From an uncultured bacterium (GTDB taxonomy: Bacteria; Bacillota_I; Bacilli_A; RFN20; CAG-826): a stretch of DNA of 35,882 nucleotides. The position numbers and the translations under genes were made by a program. The stretch covers positions 1 to 35,882 of the forward strand of contig CASFZJ010000017.1 of NCBI GenBank assembly GCA_949299165.1, written 5' to 3'. This document shows, piece by piece, positions 16,365 through 28,844 of the stretch (positions within the stretch are counted from its first letter, which is position 1; each line of letters begins with the position of its first letter). The notes under the pieces were generated by a model. That model worked only from the letters and a program-made list of their open reading frames with translations. It did not search any database and had not been told where the DNA came from.

Positions 16365-17390
16365 TTACAAAGTTTTTTGACTAACTTTTATACCATCTGT
16401 ATGATAAGAATTTATCGCATCCATCTCATAAGGGAAGGTCTCCATTGGATAGCTATTTAATTTAAATTCTATAAGTTTATCAATGATTTGAACTTGTGTC
16501 TCATAATCATTTCTCACTGTGCCATACATTTCTTTATTTACAACGGCTTCATATCCAACACTTGTTTCATCAACTCCAATAATAGGGAAGAAATTTTCGT
16601 ATAATGGAATTTCAGGATTATAATTTTCTTGTTCTTTCAGAAAATCAATCGCACCAAGCGCCATATCATCGTTATTCGAAATAATTAAATCAATATCATC
16701 TTTATAATATTCATAAATTTCTGCTAAATAATCTCTTGAAATTGTTCTATTCCAATCGCAAAATCTTGTATCTAAAACATTAATTTCATAACCTAAATCC
16801 GCAAGGCCACTCACTGAATATTGGCTTCTATTTTCGGTGTCTTGGTGACCTTGCTCGCCCTTAATCAAAATAAGATCCAAAACTCCGTTTTGGTTTCGAT
16901 CGTATTTTTCCTTAAAATTAGAAAAACCTTCGAAATATTCATTTGTAATTTCTGCTTGAAGCAAACCATCACTTTCAGGTTTTGCACCAACATAAAAAGC
17001 GTTATCTGTATTCGCTAAATCCTCTTCCAAAGGTTCTCTATTTAAAAAGATAATAGGTTTATTTACTGTTTCTACTTTTTCAACAATTGTTTTTGCGGCT
17101 AATCTATCGACTAAATTTATCAATAAAAATCTACTACTTTCATTATTTATTTCGCTTACAATTTGATCGTTTTGATAACTTTGACTTGCTTCGCCATCAA
17201 AGACTTGAATAGAGTACTTATCTTTTAATATGGTTTGAATTTGATTTGAGTAACTAGACATAAATGTATCTTCAAAAGAATAAATAAAAAGCGAAATGTG
17301 CCAATTATTGCTTCCACAAGAAATTACACCAAGAGATGAAAAATTGCATAAAAAATTTAAAAAAGTACTAATTTTTTTAATTTTTCTCAT
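16365..17390 (-). CDS. MglB-like galactose/glucose-binding lipoprotein of a sensing operon
   Basis: A 341-residue periplasmic-binding-protein-type lipoprotein (lipobox VISC, C25). Domain order is canonical. Residues that bind galactose/glucose in E. coli MglB are kept: D41/F43 (FEDTF), N92 (INLVD), H182/D184/R188 (GHQDTENR), W213, the NND at 239-241 and D274 (GVD). The calcium loop is also recognisable (DRNQNG at 164-169). It has no permease or ATPase partner but sits at the end of a regulator-kinase operon, overlapping the kinase by 14 nt, so it most likely presents sugar to the kinase, like XylFII with LytS in clostridia. SD: AGGAGG. Sugar identity is inferred from the ligand residues. Confidence 0.88.
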   Translation of the reverse strand: MRKIKKISTFLNFLCNFSSLGVISCGSNNWHISLFIYSFEDTFMSSYSNQIQTILKDKYSIQVFDGEASQSYQNDQIVSEINNESSRFLLINLVDRLAAKTIVEKVETVNKPIIFLNREPLEEDLANTDNAFYVGAKPESDGLLQAEITNEYFEGFSNFKEKYDRNQNGVLDLILIKGEQGHQDTENRSQYSVSGLADLGYEINVLDTRFCDWNRTISRDYLAEIYEYYKDDIDLIISNNDDMALGAIDFLKEQENYNPEIPLYENFFPIIGVDETSVGYEAVVNKEMYGTVRNDYETQVQIIDKLIEFKLNSYPMETFPYEMDAINSYHTDGIKVSQKTL

Positions 17391-19083
17391 GTTTTTTCGC
17401 CTCCTCCTTTGGAATTATTATTTTAATTATAGTACCTTCATCAATAATACTATTAATAATTAAATCAGCTTTTTCACCATAATAAATTTTTATTCTTTGA
17501 TAAACATTTTTAAGTCCAACACCTTCATGTATATTGTCATCATGGAAACTTTGATAAATTGTTTCGAGTCTTTCTTCGCTTATTCCATAACCGTTATCTT
17601 TAACTTCGAAAATAATATTTTTATCGTCTTGATAAACATTGATGTCAATTCTTCCATCATTTTCATCATCGTTTAATCCATGTTCAATTGCGTTTTCAAC
17701 AAGAGGTTGAAGAATAAGTTTTAAGCATGAATATTGATATAAATCTTCATCAACGTTTATATAATAAGAAAAATGTTCGCCAAATCTAATTTTTTGAATA
17801 AGAAGATAGTTTCTGACGTGTTCAATTTCATCTCTTAAAGGAATAATCGTTCTGCCTTTTGAAATAGATATACGGAAAAATTTAGAAAGAGCCACTATCA
17901 TTTCTTCGGCTTTTTGGTTCTCACCTTTATCAATCATATAAATAATTGAATCTAATGTATTGTATAAAAAATGAGGATTTATTTGATTTTGAAGAGCTTT
18001 AAGTTCGCTCTTTCTTTGGTTTTCTTGTTCTTGCACGATTTTTTCAGCAAGATCACGAATTCTTTTCATCATTTCGTTATAAGTATCTTCAAGTTGAACA
18101 ATTTCTTTATTTCCCTTTCGATATACTTTTTTCTTTTCTTCAAAATTTAAGTCTCTAACTTTATTCATTTCACTTTGAAGTCTATATAAAGGATAGGTGA
18201 CTTGTTTGACGATAATATAAACAATCCAAACATAAATTGCAGAAAGAACAATTGTTACAATAACAAGAATCGTTATAAAACTATAGAAAACTGAATAAAT
18301 TTGCGAATTATTAGTAAAAACTGCAACTTTCCAGCCAGTGTTCGAGATTGTTGAGACATATAAATTGAAAGATTGCCCATTAATTTGAGTGGTTGAAGTC
18401 CCTAAGATTAAATCTCTTGTGGCGTTTAAATCTTCTACAACAAAATCTTGTGCAGAAGAATAAACAACACTATAATTCCTATCAAAAATTGCGATGTGAC
18501 CATTTTCGCCTAAATCACTTTGATAAATTAAACGAACAATTTTCGTAAAATCAAACTCTATTAAAGCAACACCTTCATTCGCTTCTCTATTAAAATCCAT
18601 ACAATGAGAAAGCGTGAATGCATATCTATTGTCGGCATATCCAACGGCACTAAAAATATTGATTAAAGGTTCTTCCATTGCGTTCTTAAAAGATTCATCT
18701 TCGGACTTGTCGCCCTCATCAACATAATTAATGTTCGCAACTATTAAACTACCATTTTCATCATATAATGAAATCGAAATAATTTCGCTTTTCATCGCTA
18801 AAACGTCATCAAAATATTGACGAACTGCAGGCTTATTTTCTAAAACATCTATATTATCAATTTTTTCTTGTATAGCGTTTGAAACATCAATTGCACTATC
18901 AAAATAAAGTTCATAATTAGCGACAACTTGCTTGGAGGTATTAATAATTTGATTATTAATAATGGTTTGGTTTGAAGTTGTATACAAAATTGAAGCAATT
19001 CCAACAACACAGCCTAAAAACACAAAGAAACAGATAATTGTGTAGAAAGTGAGTTTAAATCTAATTGAAAAATTGCGCTTCAT
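17377..19083 (-). CDS. LytS/YesM-type sensor histidine kinase
   Basis: A 568-residue kinase with TM1 (about 11-33), an extracytoplasmic Cache-like sensor region (35-262), TM2 (about 265-293), a HAMP-type linker, the His_kinase block NQINPHFLYNTLDS (H371) and an ATPase domain with LVENAIEHG (N464), DNGYGI (496-501) and GVGLKNVYQRI. This class pairs with AraC-type response regulators to control sugar uptake. It is encoded between its cognate regulator (ATGA overlap) and a galactose-binding lipoprotein (14-nt overlap), forming a three-component sensor. The signal is probably galactose/glucose through the lipoprotein. Confidence 0.92.
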   Translation of the reverse strand: MKRNFSIRFKLTFYTIICFFVFLGCVVGIASILYTTSNQTIINNQIINTSKQVVANYELYFDSAIDVSNAIQEKIDNIDVLENKPAVRQYFDDVLAMKSEIISISLYDENGSLIVANINYVDEGDKSEDESFKNAMEEPLINIFSAVGYADNRYAFTLSHCMDFNREANEGVALIEFDFTKIVRLIYQSDLGENGHIAIFDRNYSVVYSSAQDFVVEDLNATRDLILGTSTTQINGQSFNLYVSTISNTGWKVAVFTNNSQIYSVFYSFITILVIVTIVLSAIYVWIVYIIVKQVTYPLYRLQSEMNKVRDLNFEEKKKVYRKGNKEIVQLEDTYNEMMKRIRDLAEKIVQEQENQRKSELKALQNQINPHFLYNTLDSIIYMIDKGENQKAEEMIVALSKFFRISISKGRTIIPLRDEIEHVRNYLLIQKIRFGEHFSYYINVDEDLYQYSCLKLILQPLVENAIEHGLNDDENDGRIDINVYQDDKNIIFEVKDNGYGISEERLETIYQSFHDDNIHEGVGLKNVYQRIKIYYGEKADLIINSIIDEGTIIKIIIPKEEAKKHEKN

Positions 19084-20669
19084 TTTTTTCTATATTCTTG
19101 AGGAGAAATTCCCGTATTCTTCTTAAAACAGTGTGAGAAATAATATGGGTCATCATAGCCAACTTCGTTAGCTATTGATAATAATTTTTTATCGGTATCA
19201 AGAAGTAAAGCTTTGGCTTTTTCCATTCTGACATCAGTTAAATATTTTGTAAATGTAGTATTATTTCGTTTAAGAATCAAGCTAACATAACTTACCGAGT
19301 AACCAAGCTCTTTTGCAACATCTTCTAAAGATAATAAAGAATTTGCGTAGTTATTATTGATGAAATTAAGAATTTGTCTGTAGGATGAATCTACGCCGCT
19401 TTGTCTGCTGTTTTTATTAATTTGGTCAATATGATTGACTAAATCATCTATAAAAGCAAAAAGTTGTTCACTACTTTTAATTTTATATGACTTTTCAACA
19501 ATGCCTTCGTAGGTCATATACTCTTGGAAAAGGGATTGTAACGAAACACAAGCTTTCAATAAAGAATCAATTAAATTATTTAGAATAAATAAGTAAGTTT
19601 CTTTAAAATTATCAGCAGTGATTGTATTTAAAAGTTTGTTAATTCTGTCTTTTGCGTTTTGCAAATCACCATATAAAACTTCATAAGTGATATTTTTAAA
19701 TTCATTTTCATCAACTTTTCCTGTTGTGGTTTTATTTTTACTGATATCACCAAAGAAAATAACGATATTAGAACCAATAACTGTTCTATACTCAAGGGTT
19801 CTTAAAGCATGACGATATAACTCTCTATAACTCTTCTTTTCAGTATCTTCCTTAGTCTCACTTAGTCCAATAGACATCTCCACTTTACATGCTCTTTTAA
19901 TCTTAGCTAAAACTCTAACTAATCTTTCTTGTAAAGATTCTTTTTCAATTGGCAAATTCGAAAGAATAAAAAGTCCAAATTCCGAAGAATTATCAAAAAG
20001 AACAGTCGAAATATCATAATCAGAAAACTCATCTTGTATATATTTTTCCAAGTGAAAATTAACAAGTTCCATCTTGTCATATGATATTTGAGTAATTTGA
20101 TCATCAAAGTCTATTGCAGCTAAAATTGTGTATTTGTAATCAAGATTTATTCCATCTGCAATAAGTTTTTCTTTGAAGTTTTCAGGTATATCTTTTAAAG
20201 TAATTAATTTCGAAAGATCTGAGTTTTGCATTAATTTTAGACCACTACTGGCTCTTTTTTTGAGATCTTCAATGTCATTATCAACATTATTTTTCTTATC
20301 TAGTTCAATTTTAGCTTTCTTTAAAGTTTCTTCTAGTTCGCCTAAAGTTATTGGCTTTGAAATGTATCCAATAACACCTAGAGCAATAGCTTGTTTTGCA
20401 TAATCAAAACTATCAAAACCGCTAATAATAATGGTTTGTAAAAGTGGTAATTCTTGCTTCATTCTTTTAATTAATTCTATGCCATCTATATAGGGCATTT
20501 TAATATCAGTAATTAAAAGGTCTGGTGAAAATTGCGTTCCACCAATTAAAGCATCAAACCCGTTTTCAAATTGACCAACAACTTCAAAATCATCTTTGAA
20601 ATTCAAAAGTTGTTTAAAAAGTCTTTCTCTAACTGCGCCTTCATCATCAACAATAATTACTTTATACAT
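19080..20669 (-). CDS. YesN-type response regulator with AraC DNA-binding domain
   Basis: A 529-residue regulator. The N-terminal receiver has VDDE and phospho-acceptor D55 (LLITDIKMPYIDG) with KP at beta5. A long middle region (about 130-425) is typical of YesN proteins and partly like a degenerate cyclase fold. The C-terminal AraC domain has two HTHs, the last with SIANEVGYDDPYYFSHCFKK. I start at the ATG at 20669; a TTG two codons upstream is also in frame. No SD is seen, and a TACAAT ends 8 nt before the ATG, so the mRNA may be leaderless. Likely targets are the TTACATT direct repeats upstream of mglB, which is inference. Confidence 0.92.
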   Translation of the reverse strand: MYKVIIVDDEGAVRERLFKQLLNFKDDFEVVGQFENGFDALIGGTQFSPDLLITDIKMPYIDGIELIKRMKQELPLLQTIIISGFDSFDYAKQAIALGVIGYISKPITLGELEETLKKAKIELDKKNNVDNDIEDLKKRASSGLKLMQNSDLSKLITLKDIPENFKEKLIADGINLDYKYTILAAIDFDDQITQISYDKMELVNFHLEKYIQDEFSDYDISTVLFDNSSEFGLFILSNLPIEKESLQERLVRVLAKIKRACKVEMSIGLSETKEDTEKKSYRELYRHALRTLEYRTVIGSNIVIFFGDISKNKTTTGKVDENEFKNITYEVLYGDLQNAKDRINKLLNTITADNFKETYLFILNNLIDSLLKACVSLQSLFQEYMTYEGIVEKSYKIKSSEQLFAFIDDLVNHIDQINKNSRQSGVDSSYRQILNFINNNYANSLLSLEDVAKELGYSVSYVSLILKRNNTTFTKYLTDVRMEKAKALLLDTDKKLLSIANEVGYDDPYYFSHCFKKNTGISPQEYRKK

Positions 20670-20677
20670 ATGCAATT

Positions 20678-24185: not shown

Positions 24186-25883
24186 TTATTTCTTCTTTAA
24201 GTATTTGACGGAGTCTAAACAGACAGCTGCCATAATTAATATACCTTTGAAGATATATTGAATATTTGGATCGTAACCTAAGAAGGTTAAACAATATGTC
24301 ATACCAGTGAAGATGATTGTACCAACAACAGCGCCTGAGATTTTACCAATACCGCCCGAGAAGGAGATACCACCAATAACGGCTGCTGCGATAGCATCAA
24401 GTTCAGTACCATAACCAGAGTTAGCGTTAGCACCAGCACCTTGTAATGCAGTTGCGAAGCCACCAAATCCATAAAGGATACCAGCTAAGATAAAGACGCC
24501 CATTGTTGTCCAGAAGACGGAGATACCACTAACAGAAGCTGCTTCAGCATTTCCGCCGACTGCGTACATGTTTTTACCAAACTTTGTCTTGTTCCAAATG
24601 AACCATACGATTACAACAGCAATTACTGCCATAATAATGATATTGGAATAAGATTCGCCTCTTAACATATTTCTAACTTCACTATCCATTGTGAATGCTG
24701 CGACACTAGAATAGTTAATTTGCATGAGTCCGAAGATTAAGAGTTGAGTTGATAATGTTGTGATGAACGGATGCATCTTGAACTTTGCAGAGAAGAAACC
24801 AGCAATTGCTGAGAAGAATGTACAAAGCAATACAGACATCAAGATTGCAACTATAACTTGAGCACCAACTGGAGCTCCTGTAATGTCAATTGTAAATCCT
24901 AATGCAGATGTGTAAATTGTTGTAGATAGCAACATGTTAACGAATGATGCACCTAAACCAGTCATACGACCAATGGAGAGGTCGGTACCGGCAAGGAGAA
25001 TAAGACCAGCAACGCCGAGTGTATAGAACAGCTTAACTGAAGATTGACCAAGGATTTGCATGATATTATTTGCAGTTAAGAGGTTTTTACCTTGGGTTGT
25101 AGCCATAATAATTGAGAAGAGGAAGAATAAGATGACAATGATGTAAAGAGCGTTTTTAATTGCCCATGGACCTAATTTGAAGTTATAAACATATGTTCTG
25201 GCTTTATGTTCGATAGCCTCATCAATTCCATAGTGTGAATTTCTTGCTTTATACATAAATTCACTTTTTGCTAAGAATGCATTGTATTTCTTATCTTTAA
25301 CGTCTTGATATACAGATTCATAATTTGATTTTATTTCATTAACATTTGAAGAATGGAAAATTCTTTCCGTCTTTAAATCTAATCTGTATTCTTCTTTAAG
25401 TTTTGCTACTGCTTTTTTGTCGTTTTGATCAACTTCACCTAAAGCTTTAGCGTGTTTGTCTTTAATTGCTTGAAGTCTTGAAGCGTGTTCTTCTTTTTCT
25501 TTAGCAAGTTCGACAGTCTTTACTTGTTTTGCTTCAGCTAATCTTTTATCTTGAATTTCTTTAACTTCTGCAAAATATTTTTTACCATCTTCTTTGCTTA
25601 AGTTTTTGGCTTCTGCAATAAGTTTGTTAACTTCTTCTTTATTTTGAAGTTTAACTTGTTTGGCTTCTTCGATTAAGTGCATGTTGCTCTCAATGATTTT
25701 AGCCTTATTTTCTTTTTCGATACGTTTATTGAGTTTTATTTCTCTATTTTCATTCTTTAACGCAATAATCTTATTTTCGCCATCTTTTCTGAGATCTGTT
25801 AACTTCGAGAGAATATCACCATACTCAGATTTGGTTTCAAATGGGTTAATTGGCATTGCGTAAGAAACGTTCTCATTTCCCAT
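24186..25883 (-). CDS. mglC: galactose/methyl-galactoside ABC permease MglC with a long charged N-terminal extension
   Basis: A 565-residue protein, against about 336 for E. coli MglC. The C-terminal 320 residues are a standard MglC/RbsC permease: first TM about 244-262, then the match QSSVKLFYTLGVAGLILLAG with TDLSIGRMTGLGA and later AAAVIGGISFSGGIGKISGA. Residues 1-240 have no membrane segment and are packed with Lys/Glu/Ala (for example KEKEEHASRLQAIKDKHAKA), predicted to form long helices/coiled coil in the cytoplasm. The SD is AAGGAGA and the gene lies 14 nt after mglA. The extension's job is unknown; it might bind MglA or tether other factors. The frame runs unbroken, so it is not an assembly fusion with a separate gene that I can recognise. 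Confidence 0.93.
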   Translation of the reverse strand: MGNENVSYAMPINPFETKSEYGDILSKLTDLRKDGENKIIALKNENREIKLNKRIEKENKAKIIESNMHLIEEAKQVKLQNKEEVNKLIAEAKNLSKEDGKKYFAEVKEIQDKRLAEAKQVKTVELAKEKEEHASRLQAIKDKHAKALGEVDQNDKKAVAKLKEEYRLDLKTERIFHSSNVNEIKSNYESVYQDVKDKKYNAFLAKSEFMYKARNSHYGIDEAIEHKARTYVYNFKLGPWAIKNALYIIVILFFLFSIIMATTQGKNLLTANNIMQILGQSSVKLFYTLGVAGLILLAGTDLSIGRMTGLGASFVNMLLSTTIYTSALGFTIDITGAPVGAQVIVAILMSVLLCTFFSAIAGFFSAKFKMHPFITTLSTQLLIFGLMQINYSSVAAFTMDSEVRNMLRGESYSNIIIMAVIAVVIVWFIWNKTKFGKNMYAVGGNAEAASVSGISVFWTTMGVFILAGILYGFGGFATALQGAGANANSGYGTELDAIAAAVIGGISFSGGIGKISGAVVGTIIFTGMTYCLTFLGYDPNIQYIFKGILIMAAVCLDSVKYLKKK

Positions 25884-25897
25884 TGTTAGTCTCCTTA

Positions 25898-27400
25898 TTA
25901 TAAGTATTTAGCACACAAATTAAGAAGTTCTTCTTGGTTTGTTTCTTTAGTGTTAACAACACCAGCAACTTGATAATTTGACATTACTACAATTCTATTT
26001 GTAACACCGAGAATTTCTGGCATTTCGGAAGAAACCATGATGATACATTTACCTTGATTAGCTAATTTAATCATTAATTCGTAAATTTGGTATTTGGCCA
26101 TGATATCAATACCTCTTGTTGGTTCATCCATCAAGAAGACATCAGGATTTCTTTCCATCCATTTACCAATAATAACTTTTTGTTGGTTGCCACCACTTAA
26201 TGAAGAAATATTATCAGTCGGACCATTACATTTAACATGCATTTGATCTATTTCAAATCTGGTAGCTTTTGAAATTAAATGATTAGATAAAATACCAAAA
26301 TTTTTATACTTATTAAGATTTGTAATAGTTGTGTTATAGGAAAGATCGGCTTTTCCAAACATACCATTAACTTTTCTTTCTTCTGTAACTAAGGCAAAGT
26401 TTTCATCCATAGCATCTTTCGAATCATTAAATAAGATTCTCTTGCCTTTATAAATGATTTCGCCTTCAGAAATAGTTCTTAAACCGAATAAAGATTCAAG
26501 AAGTTCACTTCTTCCTGCACCAACAAGACCATAAATACCTAAAATTTCACCTGCTTTCGCTTCAAAACTTACATTTTTAAGTCTTGGTTTATATTTAGTA
26601 CCTAAATTTTTAACTTCAAGAACAACATCTCCAGGTTTATTTGTTAATTCAGGGAATCTTGATTCAAGTGATCTACCAACCATAGCTTTAACAAGTTCAT
26701 CTAAATTGGTATCTTTGACTTTTTTATCAAGTGTGACTTCACCGTCTCTAAGAATAACAATATCATCACAAAGTTTGAAAATTTCATCCATTTTATGAGA
26801 AATAAAGATGAAACTAATACCTTGTTCTTTTAAATTTCTAACAATTTCAAATAATTTTGCAACTTCTCTTTCAGAGAGAGAAGAGGTTGGCTCGTCAAGA
26901 ATAATAACTTTTGCGTTATAAGAAACTGCTTTTGCAATTTCGACCATTTGTCTTTGAGAAACAGACATATTTCTCATAATAGTTTTTGGGTTAACATTCA
27001 TTCCTAAGCTAGCGAAAAGATGCCTGCATTTATCAAGCATTGCGCTTTCATTAACCATAATTCCGCCCATTGTAGGATATCTTCCAAGGAACATATTATC
27101 GAGAACATTACGATCGAGACATTGGTTTAATTCTTGGTGAACCATTGCAACGCCTCTTTCTAAAGCATCTCTTGGTCCGTTAAAATTAATGGAATCGCCA
27201 TTAAACAAAATATTACCAGAATCACGGGAATAGATACCGAAAACGCACTTCATCATAGTACTCTTTCCAGCTCCGTTTTCACCCATTAAACCTAAAATAA
27301 CGCCTTTTTTAAGACGTATAGTAACATTTTTTAAAACTTTATTTTTACCAAAAGCTTTAGAGAGACCTTCAATTTCAAGAATGTATTCACTATTTTCCAT
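25898..27400 (-). CDS. mglA: galactose/methyl-galactoside ABC transporter ATP-binding protein
   Basis: A 500-residue tandem ABC ATPase. Domain 1 has GENGAGKST (Walker A), signature MSVSQRQMVEIAKA and VIILDEPTSSLSE. Domain 2 has the degenerate GLVGAGRSELLE, LSGGNQQKVIIGKW and VFLMDEPTRGID. It energises MglC for sugar import. Length and both domains match MglA/RbsA; neighbouring mglB and mglC fix the call. It has its own SD (AGGTAGGA) and is separated from mglB by a strong hairpin, probably allowing more binding protein than ATPase to be made. Confidence 0.96.
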   Translation of the reverse strand: MENSEYILEIEGLSKAFGKNKVLKNVTIRLKKGVILGLMGENGAGKSTMMKCVFGIYSRDSGNILFNGDSINFNGPRDALERGVAMVHQELNQCLDRNVLDNMFLGRYPTMGGIMVNESAMLDKCRHLFASLGMNVNPKTIMRNMSVSQRQMVEIAKAVSYNAKVIILDEPTSSLSEREVAKLFEIVRNLKEQGISFIFISHKMDEIFKLCDDIVILRDGEVTLDKKVKDTNLDELVKAMVGRSLESRFPELTNKPGDVVLEVKNLGTKYKPRLKNVSFEAKAGEILGIYGLVGAGRSELLESLFGLRTISEGEIIYKGKRILFNDSKDAMDENFALVTEERKVNGMFGKADLSYNTTITNLNKYKNFGILSNHLISKATRFEIDQMHVKCNGPTDNISSLSGGNQQKVIIGKWMERNPDVFLMDEPTRGIDIMAKYQIYELMIKLANQGKCIIMVSSEMPEILGVTNRIVVMSNYQVAGVVNTKETNQEELLNLCAKYL

Positions 27401-27481: not shown

Positions 27482-28717
27482 TTATAAATTTTGGAAGTAA
27501 TCAACAATCATATCACCTTGTAATTCGCCACCTTGAATTGCGTCGAATCCAACGTAATAGATGTATTCAAATCTCTTATCTGCCATATTTACTGTATCAA
27601 CAGTATTATCAGCATTTGTACCTTGTCTATTCCAGAAGATAACTGGTTTCTTTGATGGATTAGCTTCTGTAGCATCTTCTTTTTCAGCGATAGTATCTAA
27701 GTAAGTTTTTGTTGAAGTTGTCTTAACCATGTTAATGATATAAGCGTCAACATTTGTAGCTGTTTCGAGAGCACCAAGAGCTTTTGTATCATCAGTTCCA
27801 TCACCTTTTGTAACATTTAATGTGAAGTTAAATGAACTTGCATAATGTTTAAATAATGGTTCCATAGATGTTGTTAAGAATGTATCTGTTTCACTATAGA
27901 ATGAAAGATAAACATTAGCTTGTTTTGTTGTACCTTTCTTAATTGATTTTTCAGCTAAAGTTGTAATATCTGAAGCCATGAAGTCAGCGACATTATCTTT
28001 AGTGACAGCAACGTTTTGAGCTAATAATGCTTTTGAGCCATCATCTTTAACAGTAATTGCTGATGTAAGTTTACCATAACCATTTTTGCTTTCTTCTGTG
28101 AAACCTTGTTTAACAAGATCTTCATTGGAGAGTCCATCGATACCATTTCTAGCAGCCATAAAGATAGCAGCAGCTTGAGCAGGTGCGTTTTGGTTAACTG
28201 TACCCATGACTTTACCATCTTGAATCATCTTAAGTGTGCTTTGGTTGGAGTCGTAACCGAAGATTGGCATACCTTCAACCCAGTTTGAAGCTGCAGTTGC
28301 TGCTTCAGCCATACCATCATTGTTAGAAATGAAGAAGTCAATATTTTGGTAAGCATTTAACCAAGATTCTGTACTTGTTGTAGCTGTTTGAGCATCCCAT
28401 GTAACACCAGCAGTTGATTTTTGTTCACCATGAACGATTTCTTTAACTTTATATTCTTTTCCGCCGATTTCAATATGACCTTCTACTGGATCTTCTGTAT
28501 TAGCATTAGATGTTTTTGTGCCTCTTGTAAACAAAGCGTCTCTAATACCAGCTGTTCTAGCAGCAGAGTCGTTGTGGTCGATTTGGCCGATTAATAAAGC
28601 GTAATTTAATTCGCCATCAGATAAAGCGTTTTCTAATGACCATGTATTGCTTCCACCACATGATGTAGCAATAACGCCTAATAAGCCTAAAGCGGCAAAT
28701 GGAATTAATTTTTTCAT
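27482..28717 (-). CDS. mglB: galactose/glucose-binding lipoprotein MglB, circularly permuted
   Basis: A 411-residue lipoprotein (lipobox ATSC, C20). Compared with E. coli MglB and with the canonical paralog at 16365-17390, the two halves are swapped: residues 37-190 match the usual C-terminal half (QIDHNDSAAR with H48/D50/R54; W107; SNNDGM at 131-136; GYD with D156; KVMGTV), and residues 266-411 match the usual N-terminal half (SETDTF with D278/F280; IINMV with N329; KPVIFWNR; YYVGFDAIQGGELQGD). A linker of about 70 residues (191-265) joins them. All sugar ligands are kept, so binding should be intact. It is the first gene of mglBAC. The SD (AGGAGG) is 13 nt from the ATG, longer than usual. 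Cre and TTACATT sites lie upstream. Confidence 0.93.
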   Translation of the reverse strand: MKKLIPFAALGLLGVIATSCGGSNTWSLENALSDGELNYALLIGQIDHNDSAARTAGIRDALFTRGTKTSNANTEDPVEGHIEIGGKEYKVKEIVHGEQKSTAGVTWDAQTATTSTESWLNAYQNIDFFISNNDGMAEAATAASNWVEGMPIFGYDSNQSTLKMIQDGKVMGTVNQNAPAQAAAIFMAARNGIDGLSNEDLVKQGFTEESKNGYGKLTSAITVKDDGSKALLAQNVAVTKDNVADFMASDITTLAEKSIKKGTTKQANVYLSFYSETDTFLTTSMEPLFKHYASSFNFTLNVTKGDGTDDTKALGALETATNVDAYIINMVKTTSTKTYLDTIAEKEDATEANPSKKPVIFWNRQGTNADNTVDTVNMADKRFEYIYYVGFDAIQGGELQGDMIVDYFQNL

Positions 28718-28793
28718 ATTATAAATTTATCCTCCTATTTAATTCCCTAAATAAGATATTCTCGCACGAATTACCTTATCGCATAATAATTTT

Positions 28794-28844
28794 AATGTAA
28801 GCGCTTTCAATTGTGTAATGTAAAATTTTCTACTTTAAATGTAA
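28794..28844 (-). promoter_or_regulatory. mgl operon control region: three TTACATT direct repeats
   Basis: On the minus strand TTACATT occurs at 28844-28838, 28823-28817 and 28800-28794 (steps of 21 and 23 bp, two helical turns), the layout expected for an AraC-type activator. The repeat nearest mglB overlaps a cre site. No clean -10 could be picked between here and the SD. Confidence 0.55.
28796..28809. promoter_or_regulatory. cre site (CcpA catabolite-response element)
   Basis: TGTAAGCGCTTTCA fits the Bacillus cre consensus TGWAARCGYTWNCW at all 14 positions. It lies about 80 bp before the mglB ATG, so glucose repression of galactose uptake by CcpA-HPr(Ser-P) is likely. Confidence 0.8.

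Follow-up and report, generated by a model that had tools for sequence, protein, structure and literature searches.

A circularly permuted MglB lipoprotein in a Bacilli operon and the different rotations of the same fold in its relatives

Natural circular permutants are usually regarded as single old events, and the usual route to them is tandem duplication of a gene followed by fusion and truncation. Among binding proteins, the only natural permutant that we found in open-access papers is Tp0684 (TpMglB-2) of Treponema pallidum, whose circular permutation was reported in 2016 and for which the class Type Ic / Cluster Bc was proposed (PMC4990184). Homologues of Tp0684 were reported from spirochaetes and Gram-positive gut bacteria, and Brautigam et al. 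suggested that anchoring might explain why tethered binding proteins become permuted (PMC4990184). In what follows the fold is written as three segments, N1 (N-lobe β1-3), N2 (N-lobe β4-5) and A (the C-lobe), so that canonical MglB reads N1-N2-A. This is the order of MglB from E. coli and Salmonella (GGBP; structures 2gbp, 2fvy and 3gbp), which is soluble and carries no lipid anchor, while Tp0684 is cut between N-lobe β3 and β4 and reads N2-A-N1.

The window, by which we mean the whole stretch of 35,882 nucleotides that was analysed, contains an mglB gene (P0001; 27482..28717, minus strand) encoding 411 residues in the order A-N1-N2, as judged from its translation, segment profiles and a structural model. 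The plus strand of 27482-28717 is full of stops, and an AGGAGG Shine-Dalgarno sequence was read at 28731..28736 (-). The protein begins with a signal peptide that runs to the lipobox cysteine (residues 1-20; 28658..28717, -); as in bacterial lipoproteins, Cys20 follows a hydrophobic stretch and is invariant in 10/10 relatives, with Ala rather than Leu at position -3. Segment A (residues 33-250; 27968..28621, -), which comprises the whole C-lobe and the last N-lobe strand and is normally the second half of MglB, comes first here. It is connected by a new A2-N1 joint (residues 251-264; 27926..27967, -), which corresponds to the fourth hinge in Tp0684 (PMC4990184), to the normally N-terminal segment N1 (residues 265-345; 27683..27925, -). 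An N1-N2 linker (residues 346-352; 27662..27682, -), which belongs to a joint about nine residues longer than that of canonical relatives, leads to segment N2 (residues 353-409; 27491..27661, -), containing β4-5 and a helix, which is C-terminal here versus N-terminal in Tp0684.

The original prediction held that this protein is a circular permutant of the galactose-binding protein, and sequence comparisons bear this out. Pfam Peripla_BP_4 (PF13407) matched in two out-of-order stretches, the best of which placed residues 34-195 on profile positions 120-256 (E 1.9e-26), and Peripla_BP_7 (PF18610) matched residues 268-335, the displaced N1. The MglB family NF011924 matched in several stretches (E 4.4e-21) with a score of 75 versus an equivalog cut-off of 420, a shortfall expected for a split match; permuted proteins are easily mis-annotated given the low, split scores that sequence tools assign to them. 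In a phmmer comparison with Salmonella MglB (3gbp), residues 272-409 aligned with chain positions 8-128, residues 33-70 with 137-174 and residues 97-197 with 173-277. The paralog P0002 in the same window (16365..17390, -), which had been put forward as unpermuted and which serves as a canonical-order reference, was matched by BLASTP with its halves in opposite order, residues 327-409 falling on 90-154 (E 3e-4) and 125-185 on 232-303 (E 0.002). Profiles for A1, A2, N1 and N2 each found the window protein once, in that order, with E values of 1e-26 to 1e-54, which is a departure from the N1-N2-A order of canonical Type I / Cluster B proteins. A separately assembled public contig (L002) carries a 99% identical gene, and the window order is therefore not an assembly error.

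AlphaFold2, supplied with ten window-type sequences only, returned a confident model (pLDDT 87.9) in which low values were confined to the signal peptide (pLDDT <50 for residues 1-22) and residues 102-105. The modelled strands run in the order C-lobe, β6, then β1 to β5, which is not the normal connectivity. Permutants arise via tandem copies and tandem mglB genes occur in relatives, so what looks like one permuted domain might have been a pair of partial domains in tandem, an alternative that the original prediction had itself raised, or the remains of a tandem duplication. However, each segment and each ligand residue is present only once and the model is a single two-lobed fold (pTM 0.85), leaving both a negligible probability. 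Sequence comparison and the predicted fold together confirm the window protein as one complete, circularly permuted Type I galactose/glucose-binding lipoprotein.

To map the sugar site we used the equivalent positions tabulated by Brautigam et al. (PMC4990184). This revealed that D14, F16, N91, H152, D154, R158, W183, N211 and D236 of E. coli MglB, nine of the ten ligands, are identical in the window protein, where the ligand positions are H48, D50, R54, W107, N133, D156 and Q175 in segment A, D278 and F280 in N1, and N363 in N2. The tenth ligand, N256, is replaced by Q; the earlier statement that all sugar ligands are kept thus holds for nine positions and is modified at one, by a conservative change. 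The same nine identities with Q at the tenth position characterize the core of the window's group, Tp0684-type relatives and the relative L027 described below. A Ca2+ loop (DxNxDG) is present in canonical proteins, most Tp0684-type proteins and L027, and is decayed in window MglB. The new N-terminus lies at this decayed loop, just before β1 of the C-lobe and near the N-lobe/C-lobe crossover, in agreement with the proposal that the lipid anchor has moved to the interdomain crossover. Ligand losses were seen in a few relatives: in L009 and L019 one mglB copy has T in place of the R158 ligand and G in place of D236, and L136 (5713-7053; G085:C42) encodes L122, a degenerate lipoprotein of Tp0684 order in which every sugar ligand is gone and which has no mglA or mglC nearby.

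The original prediction also knew of no described permuted MglB; Tp0684 is one, and PF18610, as noted, matches the displaced strands. Tp0684 is in fact the best PDB match of the window protein (structures 5jx2, 6bgc and 6bgd; E 4.9e-62), with residues 356-408 on chain positions 21-72 of 5jx2 and residues 32-342 on 82-384. Like the window protein, it is a permuted glucose/galactose-binding lipoprotein of an MglABC importer with nearly the same ligands, including Q for N256, and the two have the A2-N1 joint, or fourth hinge, in common. Type Ic proteins show this joint in a permuted order, and one could read the window protein as an ordinary member of the Tp0684 family with nothing new about it. 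We consider this reading improbable, as the chain order refutes it: N2 is at the opposite chain end, the strand order of the N-lobe sheet is that of another rotation, and the β3/β4 cut of Type Ic (sheet order 5-4-6-1-2-3) is absent from the window protein, which is instead cut after β5 and before the C-lobe, with most of the Ca2+ loop lost. VIA-align superposed the window model on 6bgc with a Z score of 32.5 over 309 residues, a value for the collinear part only (residues 27-344), as N2 is not sequentially alignable because it sits at the other end of the Tp0684 chain; Foldseek and VIA-align are both sequential methods, and neither displays the non-sequential superposition directly. The local confidence of N2 in the model is high (blocks >85). 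As read from their sequences, the window order and the Tp0684 order are different rotations of one circle, and the two proteins do belong to one permuted lineage by descent. We found no description of the A-N1-N2 register in the open-access literature. Compared to E. coli and Salmonella MglB, the window protein has the fold, nine of the ten sugar ligands and the operon role in common, and differs in chain order and in its lipid anchor.

The permuted gene is the first in an operon of order mglB-mglA-mglC, and is thus accompanied by the two partners expected of an MglB. The gene mglA (25898..27400, -) encodes a sugar ABC transporter ATPase with two ABC domains (PF00005, 2 stretches), and mglC (24186..25883, -) encodes a 565-residue permease with BPD_transp_2 at residues 274-553 and a long charged N-terminal extension. 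This extension covers the first ~230 residues of MglC and is probably coiled-coil; long mglC frames (about 545-645 codons) occur in related operons too. Genes named galK, galT and galM from a reading of their sequences lie near mglB. Together, the ligands and the operon make the assignment of the window product as a probable galactose/glucose-binding lipoprotein well supported, and the protein would act as an ordinary two-lobed sugar binder of the MglAC importer. Upstream of mglB, the element TTGAAAGCGCTTACA (28796-28810, -) fits the CcpA cre consensus, and catabolite control of the operon is likely.

The canonical paralog P0002 is coupled, at 16365-20675 (-), to two neighbouring genes, one for a Cache-domain histidine kinase and one for a response regulator whose sequence reads as AraC-type. 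In relatives this trio is often immediately upstream of permuted mglB (L004, L008, L085, L090 and L092), an arrangement suggesting that it is a sugar-sensing system. Judging from position, many of these operons would combine a rotated transport copy with an unrotated, presumed sensor copy.

Relatives were sampled from public contigs, related genomes and scans at the level of order, class and phylum, which yielded 75 proteins with N1, N2 and A1 that could be ordered by profile. Of these, 24 were canonical, 31 were window-type and 18 were Tp0684-type (including Tp0684 itself), with one protein each in two further orders. The first of these, L027 (G078), is A2-N1-N2-A1; its chain end, YDANADALASIQQG, and its start after the signal, AAKGHMTGTVSQN, correspond to adjacent stretches in relatives. 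Its model (pLDDT 90.5, pTM 0.85) gave a target TM of 0.70 in a sequential alignment of 286 columns to E. coli MglB. The second, L035 (G080), is cut within the first C-lobe segment and reads A1b-A2-N1-N2-A1a, starting inside A1 and closing with the initial stretch of A1. Five chain orders are found in one operon slot among these Bacilli of a single order, and the window's own genus (group g1) contains window-type, Tp0684-type and canonical genes. Neither the distinct cut relative to Tp0684 nor these other rotations in the same slot were part of the original prediction. L027, L035 and a third rare form, L010, come from one MAG each, which might be taken to mean that there was one permutation only and that the other orders are assembly errors or mis-called starts. 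This is very unlikely, as window-type and Tp0684-type proteins occur in many genomes, and the rare forms are each a single open frame with an in-frame lipoprotein signal of their own, and each lies with mglA and mglC in one operon; a signal peptide at a new N-terminus is not what a faulty assembly would produce. Rotated mglB forms with readable neighbours are directly upstream of mglA, mostly with mglC next. The circularly permuted GTPases (YlqF/YawG, cpRAS; PMC2430557) provide an analogy, a single fold that nature has cut at more than one point; their permuted forms are separate families, whereas the mglB cut points vary in one operon slot and even in one genus. Two window-type lipoproteins (L134, 3088-4581; L135, 3644-5146) carry an extra N-terminal domain of ~130 residues and have no mglA adjoining.

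To assess how often the order changed, protein trees were built from one circular-frame alignment, first with 75 rows and then with 70, the latter without the degenerate L122, which has no ligand residues, and other long branches. These trees have long branches and their root is not fixed. Order changes numbered six in the 75-row tree and five in the 70-row tree, versus a mean of 33-35 for shuffled labels, and a tree of the neighbouring MglA, which is independent of chain order, also gave six. The original prediction had asked whether the permuted order is confined to one clade; window-type proteins fell into two groups, and a tree that joins these in a single clade was rejected (p-AU 0.0066). 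The transport MglB encoded next to mglA in L139 (4434-5489; G049) has the canonical order and the ligand set N152, E154 and Q256, a set that is common to the second window-type group and hints at a link with it. L035 grouped with the canonical proteins L036-L038 (100/99), with N256 and N at position 16 in common. A single origin of L035 together with all other rotated forms was rejected (p-AU 0.0098). L027 lay inside the Tp0684-type in both the 70-row protein tree (95/93) and the MglA tree (100/99), although this nesting is not forced, placement outside having an AU p of 0.30. L010, which has the Tp0684 order, paired with the window-type L005 in both trees (97/84 for the protein, 99/96 for MglA); its nesting within the window-type is backed by both but not forced by the AU test (p 0.47 for mglB, 0.16 for MglA). 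A single clade of Tp0684-type proteins with L010 and L027 among them was neither favoured nor clearly rejected (p-AU 0.082). The number of registers by itself requires at least four changes of order, and five or more are most likely, with the direction of each change a matter of interpretation. As the MglA of L036-L038 falls among permuted lineages, the canonical order of these three might be a return.

The joints retain traces that are consistent with the usual route, as are the adjacent mglB copies of L009, L011, L012 and L026 described below. In L010 the N2-A1 joint is VVDYLAAQEEANTDWWQHAIEDGKLTYGLIIGQ, in which a window-type C-terminus runs into the start of a window-type mature chain (W..A..DG.L.Y; compare TWSLENALSDGELNYALLIGQ), while in other Tp0684-type proteins, with the exception of the degenerate L122, this joint is the Ca-loop. 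The most likely history of L010 is a change from the window order to the Tp0684 order that left the old N-terminus as a joint within the chain, the outcome expected from duplication, fusion and truncation. By our measure, the N1-N2 joint has a length of -2 or -1 in 24/24 canonical proteins and of 3 to 20 in the window's group, variability that is expected if this joint was once a pair of chain ends. We infer that mglB would have been duplicated in tandem, that the copies fused and lost their outer parts, and that a signal peptide was kept or regained in front of the new order; repetition of these steps in the same operon slot could have left one fold cut at five places among the relatives. A working permuted MglB that arose by such repeated, duplication-based permutation in one slot is, in our judgement, very probably the correct explanation of the data as a whole. 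With somewhat less confidence, we regard it as probable that mglB permutation is recurrent and in place, with at least five cut points and at least five changes including the return of L010, and with junction fossils and tandem intermediates still visible.

Whether the order is adaptive, with the lipid anchor moved for surface tethering or for docking on an MglC with a long extension, bears on the anchoring proposal of Brautigam et al. (PMC4990184). Within one bacterial order, however, several anchor positions serve the same mglAC operon, and L036-L038 are canonical-order lipoproteins that serve it as well, so that no single anchor position is needed; an adaptive order is accordingly rather unlikely. 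Several positions on the same operon suggest that the anchor point matters little, and its position may be nearly neutral. Within one genus, corresponding genes in one operon slot encode this binding protein in different rotations and with almost no change in its ligands, a natural series with which to examine how circular permutation arises, where a two-lobed binding protein can be cut and whether transport depends on the position of the lipid anchor. The tolerated cut points would be useful for biosensor design.

Adjacent pairs of window-type mglB genes that overlap or nearly touch were observed before mglA in L009 (565-3268), L011 (4947-8023), L012 (3446-6539) and L026 (44-3315), and mglB copies of L026 and L089 carry large insertions.
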